64,000 bases of DNA from Actinomycetota bacterium (lineage in GTDB: Bacteria; Actinomycetota; Rubrobacteria; Rubrobacterales; Rubrobacteraceae): positions 1-64,000 of the forward strand of contig CADDYV010000001.1 in NCBI GenBank assembly GCA_902810695.1, written 5' to 3'. The notes below the pieces were generated by a model, which was not told where the DNA came from, made no database searches, and was given only the letters and a program-made list of their open reading frames with translations. Position 1 is the first letter of the stretch; every line of letters begins with the position of its first letter. Shown here piece after piece: positions 38,582-50,791 of this stretch. The translations under genes and the position numbers were made by a program.

Positions 38582-39451
38582 TTGGAGTTTCTGCAACCCG
38601 CTACCTGGCGAGAGGCGCTGGAAGCCAAGTCGGCCCATCATGAAGCCGTGCCCATATTTGGCGGGACGGATGTAATGGTTGAGATGAATTTCGACCGGCG
38701 GCGGCCCGGTTATGTCCTGGACCTGACGCGGGTACCCGAGATACAGGTGTGGGAGAGGGAGAATGGGAAGTTCAGGGTTGGGGCCGGGGTTACCTACACC
38801 CGCATCATCACCGATTTGAAAAATGAGCTGCCGGCTCTTGCGATGGCCTCGCGCACGGTGGGCTCTCCCCAGATCCGCAACCGTGGCACCGTTGGGGGCA
38901 ACTTGGGCACCTCTTCTCCGGCAGGAGACGCGCTGCCGCCGCTCTACGCATCGGACGCCGAGGTGGAGTTGGCTTCGGTTGAGGGCATCCGGCGCGTGCC
39001 GGTGGGGGAATTCGTTACCGGACCCAAGAGGAATGTTTTGAGGCGTGAGGAGTTGATCTGGGGTTTCATTATCCCGGAGGCCGAAGGTCCGCAGCAGTAC
39101 GCCAAGATCGGGACCAGAAACGCGATGGTCATCGCGGTCTGCTCCTTCGGGTTGGCACTGCATCCGGCGCGGAGAAAAGTCGGGACCTGCATAGGCTCGG
39201 CGGCGCCCACGCCCGTTAGGGCCAAAGAAGCCGAAGAGTTCATAGAGGGTGTTCTGGCGGAGGGAGACCTCTGGGAGACGCGAGGAGCAATAAGCGAGGC
39301 GGCGCTGAGGCGCTTCGGTGAGATGGTCGAGATGTCCGCCCGTCCCATAAGCGATGTGCGCGGTACGGCGGAGTACCGCAGAAGGGCGGTGGGCGTGCTG
39401 GCCCGGCGGACGCTCTCGTGGGCGTGGGCGGAGTACCGGGATGGGAGGTAG
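38582..39451 (+). CDS. Xanthine dehydrogenase-type FAD-binding subunit
   Basis: 289-aa medium subunit of a molybdenum hydroxylase. FAD-binding motifs VPIFGGTDVMVEM near residues 23-35 and IRNRGTVGGNLGTSSPAGD, followed by the CO-dehydrogenase flavoprotein C-terminal domain. It passes electrons from the 2Fe-2S subunit to NAD or another acceptor. The TTG start follows aggaggag. First gene of the long plus-strand purine operon; the iron-sulfur gene begins 3 bp after its stop. Confidence 0.9.
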   Translation: MEFLQPATWREALEAKSAHHEAVPIFGGTDVMVEMNFDRRRPGYVLDLTRVPEIQVWERENGKFRVGAGVTYTRIITDLKNELPALAMASRTVGSPQIRNRGTVGGNLGTSSPAGDALPPLYASDAEVELASVEGIRRVPVGEFVTGPKRNVLRREELIWGFIIPEAEGPQQYAKIGTRNAMVIAVCSFGLALHPARRKVGTCIGSAAPTPVRAKEAEEFIEGVLAEGDLWETRGAISEAALRRFGEMVEMSARPISDVRGTAEYRRRAVGVLARRTLSWAWAEYRDGR

Positions 39452-39454
39452 AAG

Positions 39455-39925
39455 GTGCGCCTGAGTTGCACGGTAAACGGGGAGAAGCGCGAGGTAGAGA
39501 ACGTCTGGGAGGGCGAGAGCCTGCTTTACGTGCTGCGCGAGCGGATGGGACTCTACGGCTCCAAGAACGCCTGCGAGCAGGGTGAGTGCGGGTCGTGCTC
39601 GGTCTACCTGGACGGTACGCTCGTGTGCTCCTGCCTGGTTCTCGCCGGCCAGGCGGAAGGATGTGAGATCCTGACGGTCGAGGGGCTCGCCGAAGACGAG
39701 AGATTGCATCCGGTGCAGGAGGCTTTCGTCGAGGCAGGCGCGGTGCAGTGCGGCTTCTGCACGCCGGGGTTTGTCGTGGCTACCCATGACCTCTTGCAGC
39801 GCAATATTACGCCTTCCGAGGCGGAGATCCGGGAGGCCCTGGCGGGCAACCTCTGCCGCTGCACCGGCTACGAGAAGATCCTGGACGCCGTGCGCCTCGC
39901 TGCCGAGAGAATGGCTGCTTCGTGA
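39455..39925 (+). CDS. Xanthine dehydrogenase-type 2Fe-2S subunit
   Basis: 156-aa small subunit. Plant-type cluster Cys in ACEQGECGSCSVYLDGTLVCSC, and the second cluster Cys in VQCGFCTPGF and NLCRCTGYEKIL. This is the full set for both 2Fe-2S clusters of the family. GTG start with gggaggtagaa. The stop overlaps the next gene by 4 bp. Confidence 0.93.
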   Translation: MRLSCTVNGEKREVENVWEGESLLYVLRERMGLYGSKNACEQGECGSCSVYLDGTLVCSCLVLAGQAEGCEILTVEGLAEDERLHPVQEAFVEAGAVQCGFCTPGFVVATHDLLQRNITPSEAEIREALAGNLCRCTGYEKILDAVRLAAERMAAS

Positions 39926-41295
39926 GCGGGCGGATCGCCATCGAGCGGTGCGCGATCGCTACCGTGGACGCCGCCGGAACGGAGCATGGCTCCGGGCACA
40001 TCGTGGTCGAGGGAGACCGTATCCTCGCGGTGGGAGAAGGTCCTGTGCCGGATGAACTGGAGTCTTCTGCCAGGCGGATAGACGGCTCGGGTTGTCTGGC
40101 GACGCCGGGGCTGGTGAACTGCCACCACCATCTCTACCAGTGGGCTACCCGCGGGCTCGCCCAGCAGGCGACGCTCTTCGAGTGGCTGACGAAGCTCTAC
40201 CCCATCTGGGCTCTGGTGGACGAGGAGATCGAGCACGCCGTAGCCCGAGCGGGACTGGCTGCCCTCGCGCTCTCCGGCTGCTCGACCTCGATGGATCACC
40301 ACTACGTGTTCCCGCGAGGGGGTGGGGATCTACTGGCGGCGGAGATCACAGCCGCAAGGGAGGTCGGACTCCGGTTCCATCCCTGCCGCGGTTCTATGGA
40401 CCTGGGAGAGTCAGATGGCGGCCTGCCCCCCGACAGCGTGGTCGAAGACCGGGACGAGATACTGGCCGCGAGCGAGGAGGCTATTACTCGCTACCACGAC
40501 CCCGCGCCAGACTCCATGCTCCGCATTGCCCTCGCCCCCTGCTCTCCGTTTTCGGTTACGAAGGTGCTGATGGCCGAATCGGCAGAACTGGCGCGAAAGA
40601 GAGGCGTTAGGTTGCACACCCACCTCGCCGAGACGGAAGAGGAGGAGGAATTCTGCCGGGAACGGTTCGGCGTTCGCCCCGCCGAGTATCTGGAGGAGAT
40701 GGGCTGGCTCGGCGAGGACGTGTGGCTCGCCCACTGCGTCCATCTCAGCGAGGCCGAAGTCCGGCAGTTCGGCGAAACGGAAACGGGAGTTGCCCACTGC
40801 CCGAGCTCCAACGCCAGGTTGGGAGCCGGGATATCACCCGTCGCGGCGCTCGTGGGGGCGGGCGTTCCGGTAGGTCTGGGGGTGGATGGCGCGGCTTCCA
40901 ACGAGGCGGGGCAACTGGCCCCCGAGATGCGGCAGGCGCTCTTCCTTGCCCGCCTTGCCGGGGGAGCGGAGGCGCTCACGGTCCGGCAGCCCCTCGCGCT
41001 GGCGACCATCCACGGAGCGCGCTGCCTGGGGCGGCAGGATGAGATCGGCTCTCTGGAAGTGGGCAAGCTGGCCGACATCGCACTGTGGCGGCTGGACGAT
41101 CTCGGGCATGCGGGCATCGAGGATCCCGTGGCCGCCCTGGTCCTCGGCCCCACACCACGGGTAGGGCTGCTGCTCGTGGGTGGCCGCCCGGTAGTCGAAA
41201 ACGGCGAACTCAAGACAGCCGGTGAAGGTGAAATCGCAGACGAGATAGCGGCGGCGAGCCGCAGGCTCGCTGGAAAAGCGGAGGTTGCTTCATGA
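39922..41295 (+). CDS. Amidohydrolase, 8-oxoguanine deaminase-like
   Basis: 457 aa of the cytosine deaminase/ATZ-like branch. Metal ligands in TPGLVNCHHHLYQ, the His of LHTHLAETEEE, the His of WLAHCVHLSE, and Asp in GVDGAASNEAGQ. The HHHLYQW context and HCPSSNARLGAG match the 8-oxoguanine deaminase group, whose product is urate, which would place it directly in this pathway. Guanine as substrate cannot be excluded. The gene sits between the iron-sulfur and molybdenum subunit genes and overlaps both by 4 bp, so it is tightly co-translated. Confidence 0.85.
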   Translation: MSGRIAIERCAIATVDAAGTEHGSGHIVVEGDRILAVGEGPVPDELESSARRIDGSGCLATPGLVNCHHHLYQWATRGLAQQATLFEWLTKLYPIWALVDEEIEHAVARAGLAALALSGCSTSMDHHYVFPRGGGDLLAAEITAAREVGLRFHPCRGSMDLGESDGGLPPDSVVEDRDEILAASEEAITRYHDPAPDSMLRIALAPCSPFSVTKVLMAESAELARKRGVRLHTHLAETEEEEEFCRERFGVRPAEYLEEMGWLGEDVWLAHCVHLSEAEVRQFGETETGVAHCPSSNARLGAGISPVAALVGAGVPVGLGVDGAASNEAGQLAPEMRQALFLARLAGGAEALTVRQPLALATIHGARCLGRQDEIGSLEVGKLADIALWRLDDLGHAGIEDPVAALVLGPTPRVGLLLVGGRPVVENGELKTAGEGEIADEIAAASRRLAGKAEVAS

Positions 41296-43676
41296 CACGC
41301 GCAGAGACGATCCCGACGACCCCGACCCGCGAACGCCCCGAAACCCCGGTCTCGACCCCTGGCAGAGTCGGGGAGAGCACTACCCGCGCCGACGGCGTCC
41401 CCAAGGTTACAGGCGAGTTCGAGTACTCCTCAGACCTCTGGATGGACGGCATGCTCTACGGCGCGACGCTCCGCAGCCCCCATCCCCACGCCAACATCTG
41501 GTCCGTAGACACCTCTGAGGCTGAAGCGGTGCCGGGCATCTTCGCCGTTCTCACGCATGAAGATGTGCCAGGACGCAAGGTGTGTGGCATGGAGGTTCCC
41601 GACCAGCCGGTGCTGGCGTGGGAGCGCGTCCGCTACCAGGGAGAGCCCATAGCCCTGGTCGCCGCGGACCATCCCGAGACGGCTCGCCGGGCGCTGGAGA
41701 AAATCTCCGTCGAGTACGAGGTCCTGGACCCGATCACGGACGCCGAGGAAGCGATGCGCGAGGACACGCCGAAGCTGCACCTCTCCGGCAACTTGCTCAG
41801 GCATATCCATGTCGTACACGGTGATGTTGACACCGCCGAGGCCGATGTCGTGGTCGAAGGGGAGTACGAGGTTGGGATGCAGGATCAGGCGTTCCTCGGT
41901 CCCGAGTCCGGGCTGGCGGTGCCCGATGGCCGGGGCGGGGTGGACCTGTACATCTCCACCCAGTGGTTGCATATTGACCGGGATCAGGTCGCCGAAAGTC
42001 TCGGGCTTGAGCCGGATCAGGTGCGGCTCCATCTCTCCGGCGTGGGGGGTGCGTTCGGCGGGCGCGAGGATCTCTCGATGCAGATCCACTCCTGCCTTCT
42101 CGCGCTTCACACGGGCCGTCCGGTAAAGATGATGTACAACCGCGAGGAGTCCTTCTACGGCCACGTGCACCGCCACCCGGCTCGCATGCGCTACGAGCAC
42201 GGCGCAACCCGCGATGGCAAGCTCGTCTACATCAAGGCCCGCCTCGTGTTCGACGGGGGCGCCTACGCCTCCAGCTCCAACGCGGTGTGCCTCAACGCCG
42301 GCACCTTCGCCTGCGGCCCCTACGACGTGCCCAATGCGCTCGTAGACTCCTACATGCTCTACACCAACAACCCGCCCTGCGGCGCGATGCGGGGCTTCGG
42401 GGCGGTGCAGGTCTGCTTCGCGCACGAGGCGCAGATGGACAAACTCGCGAAAGCTCTGGGGATGGACCCTGTCGAACTCCGCATCAAGAACGCCATAAAG
42501 CCTGGCGACAGATTCCCCTTCGGGCAGGAGGTGCCGCCGCCCGCACCGGTGGCCGAACTTCTGGAGCGTCTGAAAGCCATGCCCATGCCCGAGGAGGAAG
42601 ATATCACGGGCCGCGACCTGCGACGGCTCCCGGGTGGTGTCTCCAACGTCACCCACGGCGAGGGCGTCAGACGCGGCGTCGGCTACGCCGTCGGCTACAA
42701 GAACGTCGGCTTCTCCGCGGGCTTCGACGACTACTCGACGGCTAAAGTCACGCTCTCTGTCGAGGGCGGCGAACCTCTCGTGCGGGTCCATACGGCGGCG
42801 GCGGAGGTCGGGCAGGGTATTGTCACGCTGGAGGCCCAGATCGCCCGCACCGAGCTTGGTGTAAACAAAATAGCCGTGCTGCCCGCGGATACCAGCATAG
42901 ACTCCGCCGGCTCCACCTCCGCCTCGCGCCAGAGCTACGTCACCGGGGCCGCGGTCAAAGCTGCCTGCGAGGCGGTGCGCGAGAAGGTGTTTGCGCGGGT
43001 GCGTGAGGAGTTCGGGGAGGACCCGGATGGTCTCTCTATCGAGGACGGCAACGTTGTGGCCGAGGGACACGGGATCGTGGTCCCGCTCGCCGAGCTGCTG
43101 GACGGAGAGGAGATCGGGGAGCTGGTCAAGTACCGCCACAAACCCACCTACCCATTGGATGAGAACGGGCAGGGTGATGCTCACGTCCAGTTCGCCTTCG
43201 CCGCCCAACGGGCGATAGTGGAGGTGGACGAGGAGCTCGGGCTGGTCCGCGTCGTCGAGGTCGCCACGACCCAGGATGTAGGAAAAGCCATGAACCCGCA
43301 GGCTCTGGAGGGCCAGATCGAGGGCGGTATCGCCCAGGGGCTGGGGCTCGCGCTTCTGGAGGAGATCCAGGTGAAGGAAGGCAGGATCCAGAACGCCTCC
43401 TTCACGGACTACCTGCTGCCGACCATCCTGGACATGCCGCCGGTGAAGATGGAGATCCTGGAGCTCGCGGACCCCGACGCCCCCTACGGCCTCAAGGGCG
43501 TGGGCGAGCCGCCGACCATCGCCTCGACCCCGGCGATCGTAGCCGCCCTGCGTGATGCCACGGGGAGGGAGTTGAATCGGGTGCCCGTAAAACCAGAGCA
43601 TATCGTGGGAATATCCGGTCCCACCGGGCAGCCGCCGCAGCCGGGGAGCCGTGGTCCTGCGGCGGAGAGGGCGTGA
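41292..43676 (+). CDS. Xanthine dehydrogenase-type molybdenum-binding subunit
   Basis: 794-aa large subunit. Molybdopterin and substrate-channel motifs: VGGAFGGREDLSMQ, PPCGAMRGFGAVQVCF with the Arg expected for purine binding, EVGQGIVTLEAQ and the catalytic Glu in GLKGVGEPPTIAS. It oxidises hypoxanthine/xanthine to urate with water as the oxygen source. The two partner subunits lie upstream; the XdhC-type maturation factor is not in the window. The N-terminal 35 residues are Pro/Thr-rich and probably disordered. Confidence 0.92.
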   Translation: MTRAETIPTTPTRERPETPVSTPGRVGESTTRADGVPKVTGEFEYSSDLWMDGMLYGATLRSPHPHANIWSVDTSEAEAVPGIFAVLTHEDVPGRKVCGMEVPDQPVLAWERVRYQGEPIALVAADHPETARRALEKISVEYEVLDPITDAEEAMREDTPKLHLSGNLLRHIHVVHGDVDTAEADVVVEGEYEVGMQDQAFLGPESGLAVPDGRGGVDLYISTQWLHIDRDQVAESLGLEPDQVRLHLSGVGGAFGGREDLSMQIHSCLLALHTGRPVKMMYNREESFYGHVHRHPARMRYEHGATRDGKLVYIKARLVFDGGAYASSSNAVCLNAGTFACGPYDVPNALVDSYMLYTNNPPCGAMRGFGAVQVCFAHEAQMDKLAKALGMDPVELRIKNAIKPGDRFPFGQEVPPPAPVAELLERLKAMPMPEEEDITGRDLRRLPGGVSNVTHGEGVRRGVGYAVGYKNVGFSAGFDDYSTAKVTLSVEGGEPLVRVHTAAAEVGQGIVTLEAQIARTELGVNKIAVLPADTSIDSAGSTSASRQSYVTGAAVKAACEAVREKVFARVREEFGEDPDGLSIEDGNVVAEGHGIVVPLAELLDGEEIGELVKYRHKPTYPLDENGQGDAHVQFAFAAQRAIVEVDEELGLVRVVEVATTQDVGKAMNPQALEGQIEGGIAQGLGLALLEEIQVKEGRIQNASFTDYLLPTILDMPPVKMEILELADPDAPYGLKGVGEPPTIASTPAIVAALRDATGRELNRVPVKPEHIVGISGPTGQPPQPGSRGPAAERA

Positions 43677-43682
43677 TCCGTG

Positions 43683-43967
43683 ATGCCGGGATACACGAGG
43701 GCGGAGCTTACCGCCGAGTTGAAAGTTCTTCCGTCCCGAGAGGGCGGGAAGGCTCCGAGAGAGCAGATCGAAGCTGCGAGGCAGGCGGCCAGCGAGTCGG
43801 GGCTGGCGCACGAGGCGGGGCCCGATGCTACGGTACTCGCCGGGGACCGCGGGGAAGTTCTCGGAGCCATGATGAAGGTCATAGAGGCGTCGCTCGATGC
43901 CGGAGCGCACGCCGTAGAGGTGAAGGTGGAGGCTGAGGCGGATGCCCCGCGGTTCGGCAGGGGATAG
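43683..43967 (+). CDS. MTH1187/YqgV-like thiamine-binding family protein
   Basis: About 94 aa. The segment ESGLAHEAGPDATVLAGDRG and EASLDAGAHAVEVKVEAEAD follow the pattern of the MTH1187 (DUF77) family: 'ESGL...P..T...GD..EV...I..A.EA...GA'. These small ferredoxin-like proteins bind thiamine or related pyrimidine compounds. Placed between the dehydrogenase and the permease, it may sense or carry a purine-related ligand; that is inference. The start may be GTG at 43680 or ATG at 43683. Confidence 0.65.
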   Translation: MPGYTRAELTAELKVLPSREGGKAPREQIEAARQAASESGLAHEAGPDATVLAGDRGEVLGAMMKVIEASLDAGAHAVEVKVEAEADAPRFGRG

Positions 43968-44003: not shown

Positions 44004-45986
44004 ATGTCGGCAACGACCGTCGAACAAACGCCCCGTACACGTCGCCATCCGGTGGATGAGGTGCTGCCCGCCGGGAAACTCGCGGTCTACGGGTTGCAGC
44101 ACGTGCTGGCGTTCTACGCGGGCGCGGTGATAGTGCCGATCCTGCTGGCGAGCGCTATCGGGCTCACCAGATCCCAGCTCGTCTACCTTATAAGCGCGGA
44201 CCTTTTTACGTGTGGGATCGCCTCGCTCATCCAGTCCGTGGGCTTCTGGGAGGTCGGGGTCAGGCTGCCGCTCCTGCAGGGGGTAACGTTCACGGCGGTG
44301 GCCCCGATGATCGCCATCGGCAACGCGAACGGCGGCGGTGTTAAAGGTCTTCTGGTGATCTACGGCTCCATCATCGTCGCCGGAGTTTTCACCTTCCTCT
44401 TCGCCCCTTACTTCAGCCGCATCGTCCGCTTCTTCCCGCCGGTGGTCATAGGGACGGTTATCACCGTCATCGGTGTTACGCTGGTGCCGGTGGCGATTCA
44501 GGACGCCGGCGGCGGGAATCCGAAAGCCCCCGACTTCGGTAGCCCGCAGAACATCGCCCTCGCCCTGGGGGTGCTCATCCTGATCCTGATCCTCTACCGG
44601 GTGTTCCGGGACAGGTTCTTGAGCACCGTGGCTGTCCTGATCGGGCTGATCGTTGGCACGGCGGTCGCCGCGGCGCTGGGGATAGCGGATTTCAGCCAGG
44701 TCTCGAAGTCCGGGTGGGTGGGCGTAACCACGCCTTTTCACTACGGGCTGCCGCACTTCCAGGTGGCGGCGATCATCTCCATGGTCATCGTCATGCTGAT
44801 AACCATGATCGAGACTACCGGCGACACCTTCGCCACCGGTGAGATCGTCGGCAAGCGGCTCGCCACAAGGGACATCGCCCGCGCGCTGCGCTCCGACGGG
44901 CTCTCGACCCTGCTCGGGGGGATCTTGAACTCCTTCCCCTACACCTGCTTCGCGGAGAATATCGGGCTGGTCCGGCTGACCAGGGTCAGGAGCCGCTGGG
45001 TGGTCGCCACGGCCGGCGGGATCATGATAATCCTCGGGCTCCTTCCCAAGCTGGCCGCGATGGTCGCTTCCATACCGACCCCGGTTATCGGCGGCGCGGC
45101 GCTGGCCCTCTTCGGGACGGTGGCGGCCATAGGCATCCAGACGCTGCAGCGGGTGGACCTCACCCGCACGGGAAACGTGCTCATCGTGGCCGTGAGCCTC
45201 GGCTTCGCCCTCACCCCCGTGGTCTTTCCGCAGTTCTTCCAGCACTTCCCCAACTCGGTGCAGGTCGTGCTGGGGAGCGGCATTACCCTGGGAAGCATTT
45301 GCGCCTTCGTACTCAACTTCATCTTCAACGTCCTGGGCGGAGGCGAGCACCGCGAGGCGGCCGCGGGCCGCGGGGAGGAGAGGCTCTCGCTCGGGCGCAT
45401 CAACGAGATGAGCCGAGAGGAGTTTGCGGAGCACTTCGGCCGTCTCTTCGAGGGCGGGCGCTGGGTCGCGGAGGAGACCTACGACCGCAGGCCCTTCTCC
45501 AGCGTCTATCAGTTGCGCTGCGCTTTCCAGGATACTCTCCTTGAGGCTCCGCCTGAGCGCCAGATCGAGCTCATCCGCTCCTACCCGCCGCTCGGCGTCA
45601 TAGACCTCTCCGATGAGTCTCTGCCCGAGGAGCTCGGCCTCACCCCTGAGGAGTACGAGGCGATCACCAGCGTCGCCGCCGGAGGGATACTGGGGCCGGA
45701 GTCGCTGCGCGACCGCGTCTCGGCAGGTCTCGACTCACTCAGCCCCGCCGAACACGACGAGTTCATGCGGCTCAACCGGGCCTACCGGGAGAAGTTCGGC
45801 TTCCCGCTCATCATCGCTCTGCGGGAGCGCGAGGGCAAGGGGGAGGTCCTCGAGTCCGGCCGGGCCCGGCTGGAGAACTCCCCGACCCAGGAGAGGATGG
45901 CCGCAATCGTCGAGATCGCCAAGATAGCCAACTTCAGGCTGCAGGATCTGGTAGAAGAGCCCGAGCTTGAAGTACAAAGAGGTTAG
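44004..45986 (+). CDS. NCS2 xanthine/urate permease fused to an inactive-looking OHCU decarboxylase domain
   Basis: 660 aa. Residues 1-450 form a nucleobase:cation symporter-2 with about 12-14 helices, including LQGVTFTAVAPM, ETTGDTFATGEIVGKRLATRDI and the NCS2 motif FPYTCFAENIGLVRLTRVRSR. A Gly/Glu-rich linker leads to residues 464-655, homologous to OHCU decarboxylase (UraD). In that domain the catalytic His of the AHPDL motif is Tyr527 (SYPPL), the Glu of the REQ motif is Asp570 (RDRVSAGL), and about 23 extra residues lie between them. Catalysis is therefore unlikely; binding, sensing or docking of the adjacent active UraD is possible. It should import urate or xanthine. The ATG follows aggtaaggaa. 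Confidence 0.88.
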   Translation: MSATTVEQTPRTRRHPVDEVLPAGKLAVYGLQHVLAFYAGAVIVPILLASAIGLTRSQLVYLISADLFTCGIASLIQSVGFWEVGVRLPLLQGVTFTAVAPMIAIGNANGGGVKGLLVIYGSIIVAGVFTFLFAPYFSRIVRFFPPVVIGTVITVIGVTLVPVAIQDAGGGNPKAPDFGSPQNIALALGVLILILILYRVFRDRFLSTVAVLIGLIVGTAVAAALGIADFSQVSKSGWVGVTTPFHYGLPHFQVAAIISMVIVMLITMIETTGDTFATGEIVGKRLATRDIARALRSDGLSTLLGGILNSFPYTCFAENIGLVRLTRVRSRWVVATAGGIMIILGLLPKLAAMVASIPTPVIGGAALALFGTVAAIGIQTLQRVDLTRTGNVLIVAVSLGFALTPVVFPQFFQHFPNSVQVVLGSGITLGSICAFVLNFIFNVLGGGEHREAAAGRGEERLSLGRINEMSREEFAEHFGRLFEGGRWVAEETYDRRPFSSVYQLRCAFQDTLLEAPPERQIELIRSYPPLGVIDLSDESLPEELGLTPEEYEAITSVAAGGILGPESLRDRVSAGLDSLSPAEHDEFMRLNRAYREKFGFPLIIALREREGKGEVLESGRARLENSPTQERMAAIVEIAKIANFRLQDLVEEPELEVQRG

Positions 45987-45992
45987 AGGAGG

Positions 45993-46538
45993 ATGCCGGA
46001 GAAGCTCTCGGTGGATCAGGTGAACGAGCTTGACAGGGAAGCTTTCGTAAAGCGATTCGGTGCTCTCTACGAGCACTCGCCCTGGGTGGCTGAAAGAGCG
46101 TGGAAACGCCGTCCTTTCGAGGGCTTCGAGGCTCTGCACAAAGCGTTCGAGGACGAGCTGTACGCCGCTCCCCGCGACATGTGGCTGGATATCATCCGGG
46201 CGCACCCTGACCTGGCGGGTGAAGATGCGCTCGCCGGGAAGCTTACGGAGGAGTCCGCGCGCGAGCAGTCTTCAGCGGGCCTCGACCGTCTCTCGCCGAA
46301 AGAGTTCGAGGCGCTTGCGAAGGTGAACCGCGAGTACCGCGAGAAGTTCGGCATCCCGTTCGTCGTCTACGTGCGCGAACACACCAGGGAGTCCATTCTG
46401 CAGAACGCGAAGCGGCGGCTCGGCAACACCAGAGAGCAGGAGATACAGACCGCTCTTGGGGAAATCTCCAAGATAGCGCGATACCGGTTGCAGGAGATCG
46501 TCGAGTGGGAAGGAGATCACAAGAATGACCGAAACTAA
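45993..46538 (+). CDS. uraD: OHCU decarboxylase
   Basis: 2-oxo-4-hydroxy-4-carboxy-5-ureidoimidazoline decarboxylase, 181 aa, giving S-allantoin. Catalytic His71 in RAHPDLAG and Glu91 in SAREQSSAGL are present, as are NREYREKFGIPF and the C-terminal helix EISKIARYRLQEIV. It begins 6 bp after the permease fusion, whose C-terminal domain is its degenerate paralogue. It overlaps the uricase gene by 14 bp. Confidence 0.93.
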   Translation: MPEKLSVDQVNELDREAFVKRFGALYEHSPWVAERAWKRRPFEGFEALHKAFEDELYAAPRDMWLDIIRAHPDLAGEDALAGKLTEESAREQSSAGLDRLSPKEFEALAKVNREYREKFGIPFVVYVREHTRESILQNAKRRLGNTREQEIQTALGEISKIARYRLQEIVEWEGDHKNDRN

Positions 46539-47391
46539 GACCACGGGCAGGGTAGTTCTCGGGCAGAACAACTACGGCAAGTCCGACGTGCGGCTGGTCA
46601 AGGTCTTCCGGGATACTCGGCGGCACGATATCACCGAGGTTCGGGTGGACGTGGCGCTCTTCGGCGACTTCACCGCCGCCCACGTCGAGGGAGACAACAC
46701 CGCCCTTCTGGCGACCGACACGATGCGCAACACCGTCTACGCGCTTGCCAAAGACCACCTGACAGGGAGCGTGGAGGAGTTCGGGATGAAGCTCATCAGG
46801 CATTTTGTCGAGGCGGGACCAACTGTCGAGCGCGCCCGCATCCGCATGACCGAACACCTGTGGAACCGCATCGTGGTGGACGGCGAGGAACACGAACACT
46901 CCTTCGTCCGCGCCGCTGGCAAACACACAGCAACCGTCGAGGGCGACGGGAGCGAGTTCAGCATCACGTCCGGAGTAGACGACCTGATGGTGCTCAAGAC
47001 CACCAACTCCGGCTGGGAGGGCTATCTCCACGAGCGGTTCACCACCCTGCCCGAGACCAGCGACCGCATCCTCTCCACCGTCATAACGGCCAACTGGCTC
47101 TACAACACCACCGAGGTGGATTTCAACGGGACGTGGAATGCGGTGAAGGACCGGATCCTCGCCACCTTCACCGACCACTACAGCCCCTCGGCGCAGAATA
47201 CTCTCTACCGGATCGGCAAGGCGGTTCTGGAGAACTTCCCGCAGATAGAGAAGATACATCTCTCCTTACCCAACAGGCACCACCTCCTCTACGACCTCTC
47301 TCGCTTCGGGATGGAAAATAACAACGAGATCTTCCACGCCGACGCCGAGCCCTTCGGCCTGATCGAAGGCTGGGTGGAGAGGTCTTCTTGA
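46525..47391 (+). CDS. Urate oxidase (uricase)
   Basis: 288 aa, cofactor-free oxidation of urate to 5-hydroxyisourate. Active-site residues by family pattern: Lys19 in NNYGKSDVR, Thr64 in LLATDTMRN, Arg171 in HERFTTL, Gln224 in SAQNTLY and His252 in [11 protein letters not shown]. Length is that of a stand-alone uricase with two T-fold domains, no OHCU domain being fused to it. AAGGAGATC lies before the ATG inside the end of uraD. Confidence 0.95.
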
Positions 47392-47732
47392 GCGGCTTTC
47401 TGACCACCCACGTCCTGGATACCGCCCACGGCAGGCCCGCCGCCGGATTACGGGTAGAGCTGTTCAAAATTGAGGACGACGAGCGGAAGCTCCTCAAGAC
47501 GCTGCGCACCAACTCCGACGGCAGGACGGACGAACCGCTTATCCTGGAAGGCGAATTCGAGCGTGGGGTGTACGAGATAGTCTTTTTCGTCGGCGAGTAT
47601 TTCGGCGAGGGTGGGGACATTCCGTTTCTGGACGAGGTCCCGATCCGGTTCGGGATCTCCAGTCCCGAGGAGCACTATCACGTGCCCCTGCTCGCCTCTC
47701 CGTGGTCCTACAGCACCTACAGGGGGAGCTAG
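47388..47732 (+). CDS. uraH: 5-hydroxyisourate hydrolase (transthyretin-like)
   Basis: 114 aa. Family motifs: [15 protein letters not shown] with the catalytic His8, [11 protein letters not shown] with the Arg, and [21 protein letters not shown], including the C-terminal YRGS tetrapeptide that marks hydrolases rather than true transthyretins. It converts 5-hydroxyisourate to OHCU. TTG start overlaps the uricase stop. All three urate-ring-opening enzymes are thus encoded as one overlapping block. Confidence 0.95.
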
Positions 47733-50346: not shown

Positions 50347-50377
50347 AGATTACTGAAAGAGAGCGGAGGAGGTGACG

Positions 50378-50791
50378 GTGGGTGACGTGAAGATAACGGT
50401 GGGACCGTACGAGTTTATGGCCCGGTGGGAAAGGGAGAGGTGTCCCAGGACGTGCGAAGCTTTCGAGAAGCTCTTGCCGTACCGCCAGAAGATCATCCAC
50501 GTCAGGTGGAGCGGAGAGGCGTGCTGGATCCCGCTTGGCGATTACGACCTGGGGGTGGGCTTCGAGGACGCCACCAGCGTGCCGCAGGCGGGTGAAATTC
50601 TGTTCTACCCCGGCGGCTACTCGGAGACCGAGATCCTCTTCCCCTACTACGGCACGGTCTTCAAGAGTAAGCTCGGCGTGATCGCCGGCAACCACCTGCT
50701 GACCGTTACCGAGGGACACGACAACCTGCGCCCGATGGGTGAGAAAGTCCTCTGGGAGGGCGCCCAGGACATCGTGTTCGAGAGCGCCTGA
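50378..50791 (+). CDS. DUF3830 family protein (copy in the purine operon)
   Basis: About 137 aa, cyclophilin-like family of unknown role. The pattern EFMARWERERCPRTCEAFEKLLP, HVRWSGEACWIPLG, PQAGEILFYPGGYSETEILFPY and GNHLLTV parallels the longer DUF3830 protein at 32235. I prefer the GTG at 50378, which has ggaggaggt at a good distance, over that at 50372. It is the last gene of the operon and lies 31 bp after allB. The repeated pairing of DUF3830 with amide/ureide hydrolases suggests it acts on, or protects, such metabolites. Confidence 0.8.
   Translation: MGDVKITVGPYEFMARWERERCPRTCEAFEKLLPYRQKIIHVRWSGEACWIPLGDYDLGVGFEDATSVPQAGEILFYPGGYSETEILFPYYGTVFKSKLGVIAGNHLLTVTEGHDNLRPMGEKVLWEGAQDIVFESA

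Follow-up and report, generated by a model that had tools for sequence, protein, structure and literature searches.

The analysed window, a stretch of 64,000 nucleotides from a bacterium of the Rubrobacteraceae (Actinomycetota; contig CADDYV010000001.1, positions 1 to 64,000), contains a purine-catabolism cluster (Table 1). Its upstream block spans 38582..43676 (+) and comprises xanthine dehydrogenase subunits and an amidohydrolase. A 95-residue open reading frame with no assigned function lies between xanthine dehydrogenase and the next large gene (43680-43967), and a DUF3830 protein is encoded within the cluster at 50372-50791. The large gene joins an NCS2 permease to a domain resembling the OHCU decarboxylase UraD. 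The preliminary description had proposed this joining within one reading frame, and the Pfam scan bears it out, with PF00860 at residues 25-409 (E 5e-106), PF09349 at residues 467-647 (E 2.5e-35), and no internal stop. An intact UraD starts 6 bp past the fused stop and has the His71 and Glu91 previously assigned to it. It is followed by the genes for urate oxidase and 5-hydroxyisourate (HIU) hydrolase.

Table 1. Coordinates of the fused gene, its parts, and the neighbouring purine-catabolism genes in the window.
Feature	Position	Strand	Basis
Xanthine dehydrogenase subunits, upstream	38582-39451, 39455-39925, 41292-43676	+	41292-43676: Pfam molybdopterin domains; the two small subunits (38582-39451, 39455-39925) named from sequence and neighbourhood only
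Amidohydrolase, upstream purine-catabolism gene	39922-41295	+	Pfam
Fused NCS2 permease with C-terminal putative pseudo-UraD domain, 660 aa	44004..45986	+	Single open frame; PF00860 and PF09349; pbuX TIGR03173 above cut-off (NCBIfam)
NCS2/NAT transporter domain, residues 25-409	44076..45230	+	Pfam; model matches UraA, UapA and SVCT1 structures; motif ENIGLVRLTRV
Linker past last membrane helix, about residues 445-462	45336..45389	+	Model confidence low at residues 447-457
Putative pseudo-UraD domain, about residues 463-650	45390..45953	+	Pfam; AF2 pLDDT 91.7; TM-score 0.92-0.93 to 2o70
Tyr527 codon, catalytic His position	45582..45584	+	Alignment and residue indexing
23-residue insert, about residues 532-554	45597..45665	+	Alignments; spacing census
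Asp570 codon, catalytic Glu position	45711..45713	+	Alignment and residue indexing
Arg645 codon, conserved Arg of last helix	45936..45938	+	Common to all fused and separate domains
Intact OHCU decarboxylase UraD, His71 and Glu91	45993..46538	+	PF09349, 182 bits; TIGR03164 above cut-off
Urate oxidase (uricase)	46525..47391	+	PF01014, TIGR03383
5-Hydroxyisourate hydrolase	47388..47732	+	PF00576, TIGR02962

The membrane part of the fused protein has the PF00860 domain and scores above the curated cut-off of the pbuX model, as expected of an NCS2/NAT protein, and its helices run on to about residue 444. It shares the complete membrane domain and the nucleobase-type motif of the NCS2/NAT purine permeases (PF00860, TIGR03173 pbuX; UraA, UapA), and differs from them in having an extra C-terminal domain of about 190 residues. 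The NAT signature motif opens with Gln or Glu (PMC5972032), and that of the window permease opens with Glu. The fused permeases of loci L035, L039, and L040 (Actinophytocola, Haloechinothrix) have ANAGLVRLT at the start of the motif; since Ala stands where Gln or Glu is usual, their substrate may differ. The SLC26/SulP transporters have a related membrane fold and a C-terminal soluble domain, STAS, at the same position. However, STAS is unrelated to UraD and the likeness is an analogy only; no STAS domain was found in the fused protein by the Pfam scan.

The C-terminal domain is predicted to keep a confident UraD fold, according to an AlphaFold2 model made from an alignment of the window and related sequences and a Foldseek match to the zebrafish OHCU decarboxylase (TM-score by target length). 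It thus resembles UraD (PF09349, TIGR03164/TIGR03180; 2o70, 2o8i, 3o7h) in fold, overall sequence, and the conserved Arg. The full-length model (pLDDT 83, pTM 0.64) leaves the interface and relative placement of the two parts unset; it matches UraA, SVCT1, and UapA in the membrane part, zebrafish UraD in the rest, and SLC26 transporters further down. By analogy with the topology of UraA and UapA, the UraD-like domain is expected on the cytosolic side.

Catalysis by OHCU decarboxylase depends on one His and one Glu. Residue indexing places Tyr527 at the His position of the fused domain and Asp570 at the Glu position, as the preliminary description had it, and the roughly 23 extra residues that it noted between them are also found: the two positions are 43 residues apart versus 20 in the intact UraD, which makes the insert 23 residues long. 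A search by domain architecture with alignment of the active sites, the check proposed at that stage, yields a class of 79 permease-fused UraD domains. His is present in 0/79 of these (Tyr 50, Phe 29), a set retrieved in part with fused queries and therefore possibly biased towards His-less domains; family-profile searches, which are free of this bias, likewise revealed none that is joined to a permease and has His, among the long frames read and the matches listed. Asp occupies the Glu position in 72/79. The class comprises 31 distinct domains (Tyr 28, Phe 3; Asp 27, Glu 4 at the second position) and a second set of 48 from one large family, not de-duplicated (Tyr 22, Phe 26). In contrast, the separate UraDs keep both His and Glu in 162/162 cases, 126/126 in the first set and all of a further 36 in the large-family set. 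After thinning at 90% identity, with the Corynebacterium-like sequences excluded from the fused set, 48 fused and 128 separate domains remain.

Other residues mark the fused domains as a class, namely 483Q, 505R, 509Q, 570D, and 602L, with the window domain itself retaining Glu at 483. The position of Arg645 is invariant across fused and separate domains, and the EKFGFP loop region is conserved in most fused domains. The 23-residue insert was considered as a class-defining feature and ruled out, being present in only 4/31 distinct fused domains (the window, two relatives, and the R. radiotolerans-type L007); it is a local trait of the window's lineage and of R. radiotolerans. Compared with the UraD enzyme, the fused domain lacks the catalytic His in all members, has Asp for Glu in most, and is joined to a transporter. 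Judged from these sequences, it is a conserved pseudoenzyme domain, and decarboxylase activity has presumably been lost; the preliminary description had already taken it for a catalytically degenerate pseudoenzyme.

All 79 permease-fused UraD domains are from Actinomycetota. Relatives in the window's own family carry the fusion, and a genome scan found it in Geodermatophilus, Klenkia, Pseudonocardia, Actinophytocola, Haloechinothrix, Kribbella, Flexivirga, Intrasporangium, Gordonia, and others. Outside the phylum, no fusion was seen in samples around Cohnella, Deinococcales, and Bradyrhizobium. The first two (299 genomes, 5 with UraD, and 86 genomes, 30 with UraD) have no UraD frame long enough for a fusion, two of their longer frames having been read. 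In the Bradyrhizobium-area sample (249 genomes, 95 with UraD), a permease is present in 0 of the 18 longest UraD frames read; the catalytic His is visible in 17 of these, and one motif was not resolved.

A domain tree built without three columns around the catalytic residues places all fused domains in one clade (support 100/99), beside the UraDs of the window's family. This points to a single origin of the fused domain from a Rubrobacter-type UraD. The domain is under purifying selection, with dN/dS values of 0.06-0.41 in 13 pairs. A corresponding single clade of the fused permeases was rejected (AU p 0.00013), so that the alternatives are loss of the domain in unfused relatives and a second capture. 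Close permease relatives without the fusion exist, and the domain is therefore not essential for this type of permease. Unfused permease and UraD genes are neighbours on Deinococcus and Priestia plasmids, an arrangement that could represent the starting point of the fusion.

The fused gene is linked to purine genes in most lineages, and 27/27 loci of the first set adjoin purine-catabolism genes. In one sister genus the order is fused permease, second unfused permease, and UraD (L033:5130-6650). A plasmid-borne R. radiotolerans protein, WP_084264147.1, has Tyr at the catalytic His position and is encoded beside a nucleoside deaminase, away from uricase (L162:7965-9962). In M. smegmatis, the permease msmeg_1293, the OHCU decarboxylase 1294, the transthyretin 1295, and the uricase 1296 are co-induced under nitrogen limitation (PMC4617892). 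This gene order is that of the Rhodococcus fused operon described below, and msmeg_1293 is only a candidate fused member.

One Corynebacterium-like genus (g249; genomes of 2.3-3.0 Mb, 99-100% complete) is an exception. Here PF09349 is represented by the fused protein alone in 7/7 genomes, and a family-profile search of the same seven found neither a PF01014 uricase nor a PF00576 HIU hydrolase. In Corynebacterium-like genomes, the fused permease lies beside RdgB/Ham1 and RNase PH (L246:2801-4741). Since even species that lack genes for urate breakdown keep the domain, its role probably concerns the transporter itself and not docking. The best explanation is that it acts in cis on the permease as a non-catalytic cytosolic accessory domain, probably a ligand-reading regulator, and from the sequence comparisons the chances that this is right are about even. 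The domain, placed after the last transmembrane helix of an NCS2 purine permease, goes back to a single descent from a Rubrobacter-type UraD. Its catalytic His gave way to Tyr or Phe and its Glu mostly to Asp, and it retained the fold and the conserved Arg and gained conserved residues of its own. The remodelled pocket would bind a purine or a metabolite of the urate pathway in the cytosol, and the bound domain would adjust transport, a role comparable to that of STAS in SLC26.

A purely structural role, in which the domain binds no ligand and lends stability to the permease, to the permease dimer, or to membrane insertion, is possible and on the unlikely side. It would fit the working form of NCS2/NAT proteins, which are dimers (PMC5972032). 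It would also fit the persistence of the domain in hosts without the urate pathway, where it evolves faster (branch 0.97), and a dN/dS that is mostly higher for the domain than for the permease part. The tolerated exchange of Tyr and Phe is of the same kind: many Mycobacteriaceae-type sequences have Phe in place of Tyr, and two Corynebacterium-like ones lack the Asp. These changes count against a sensor, as they indicate a pocket without strict conservation, an observation equally compatible with a structural role. However, Arg645 and the EKFGFP loop region are still conserved in most fused domains, and the class-specific changes affect the catalytic positions themselves, which suggests a remodelled pocket. 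Regulation by a ligand is favoured over the structural role because the pocket residues appear remodelled and not randomised.

The preliminary description put forward docking as one possible function, next to sensing of OHCU or urate and gating of transport; the latter two are the better-supported part of its proposal. In a docking scaffold, active UraD, perhaps together with uricase, would be brought to the permease by the dead domain to allow channelling. The gene order speaks for docking, since the intact UraD directly follows the fused gene in the window and many relatives, and the order in Rhodococcus (including Rhodococcus qingshengii) and Gordonia is fused gene, uraD, uraH, and uricase. 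As a general function, however, docking is disfavoured. Beyond the family of the window, most actinobacterial hosts carry a separate UraD of a different, distant subfamily, and 10/27 fused loci have xanthine dehydrogenase or a deaminase near and no UraD within about 4 kb. The genus that retains the fused protein without a separate UraD implies that the domain cannot, as a rule, depend on active UraD for its function. Docking is thus considered improbable.

Still less probable is an altered enzyme, in which Tyr and Asp form an alternative catalytic pair acting on OHCU or a related compound. The Tyr-Asp pair is conserved in many families, and the Arg and the fold remain. In contrast, Phe, which is incapable of acid-base chemistry, occurs in 29/79, Ala replaces Asp in two sequences, and a separate PF09349 protein is also present in the examined genomes with other urate-pathway genes and in every genome of the first sets. 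The loss of the catalytic residues might also be read as a chance frame, a decaying remnant, or the sequencing error considered in the preliminary description, a negligible prospect that is ruled out by the confident fold, purifying selection, and the recurrence of the fusion, which is found across dozens of genomes independent of one another and is therefore no assembly error.

Fusions of UraD to other purine-pathway proteins are known from the plant UraD-HIU hydrolase (TTL) and the proteobacterial PuuE-UraD. Those join enzyme to enzyme, whereas here the partner is a transporter. OHCU decarboxylase activity has been measured for plant TTL (PMC2834698), and the proteobacterial long UraD frames checked keep the catalytic His. 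For the Arabidopsis fusion, an interaction with the membrane receptor BRI1 has been reported (PMC2834698), a remote precedent for the placing of a UraD fold at a membrane protein. Both parts of the present fusion are known families, and the proteins are already in databases. The literature searched, with most subscription journals outside its scope, yielded no account of the fusion or of the inactive site.

RefSeq gives the name uraD to the R. radiotolerans protein WP_084264147.1 and lists its Rhodococcus counterpart under solute carrier family 23. With at least one fused protein called UraD, a genome can seem to hold a decarboxylase that is possibly absent, and automated annotation of the fused proteins as UraD would be corrected. 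To our knowledge, pseudoenzyme domains within small-molecule transporters are rarely documented. The fusion offers a clean case with a single origin and a known parent enzyme, natural test cases in the genomes without the pathway, and tractable hosts in Rhodococcus, Gordonia, and R. radiotolerans. A tentative reading of the sequences, with rather less than an even chance, is that an enzyme of the urate pathway was converted once into a built-in allosteric sensor, through which cytosolic purine catabolites would control uptake, and that this sensor spread through the Actinomycetota and may have outlived the pathway in one genus.
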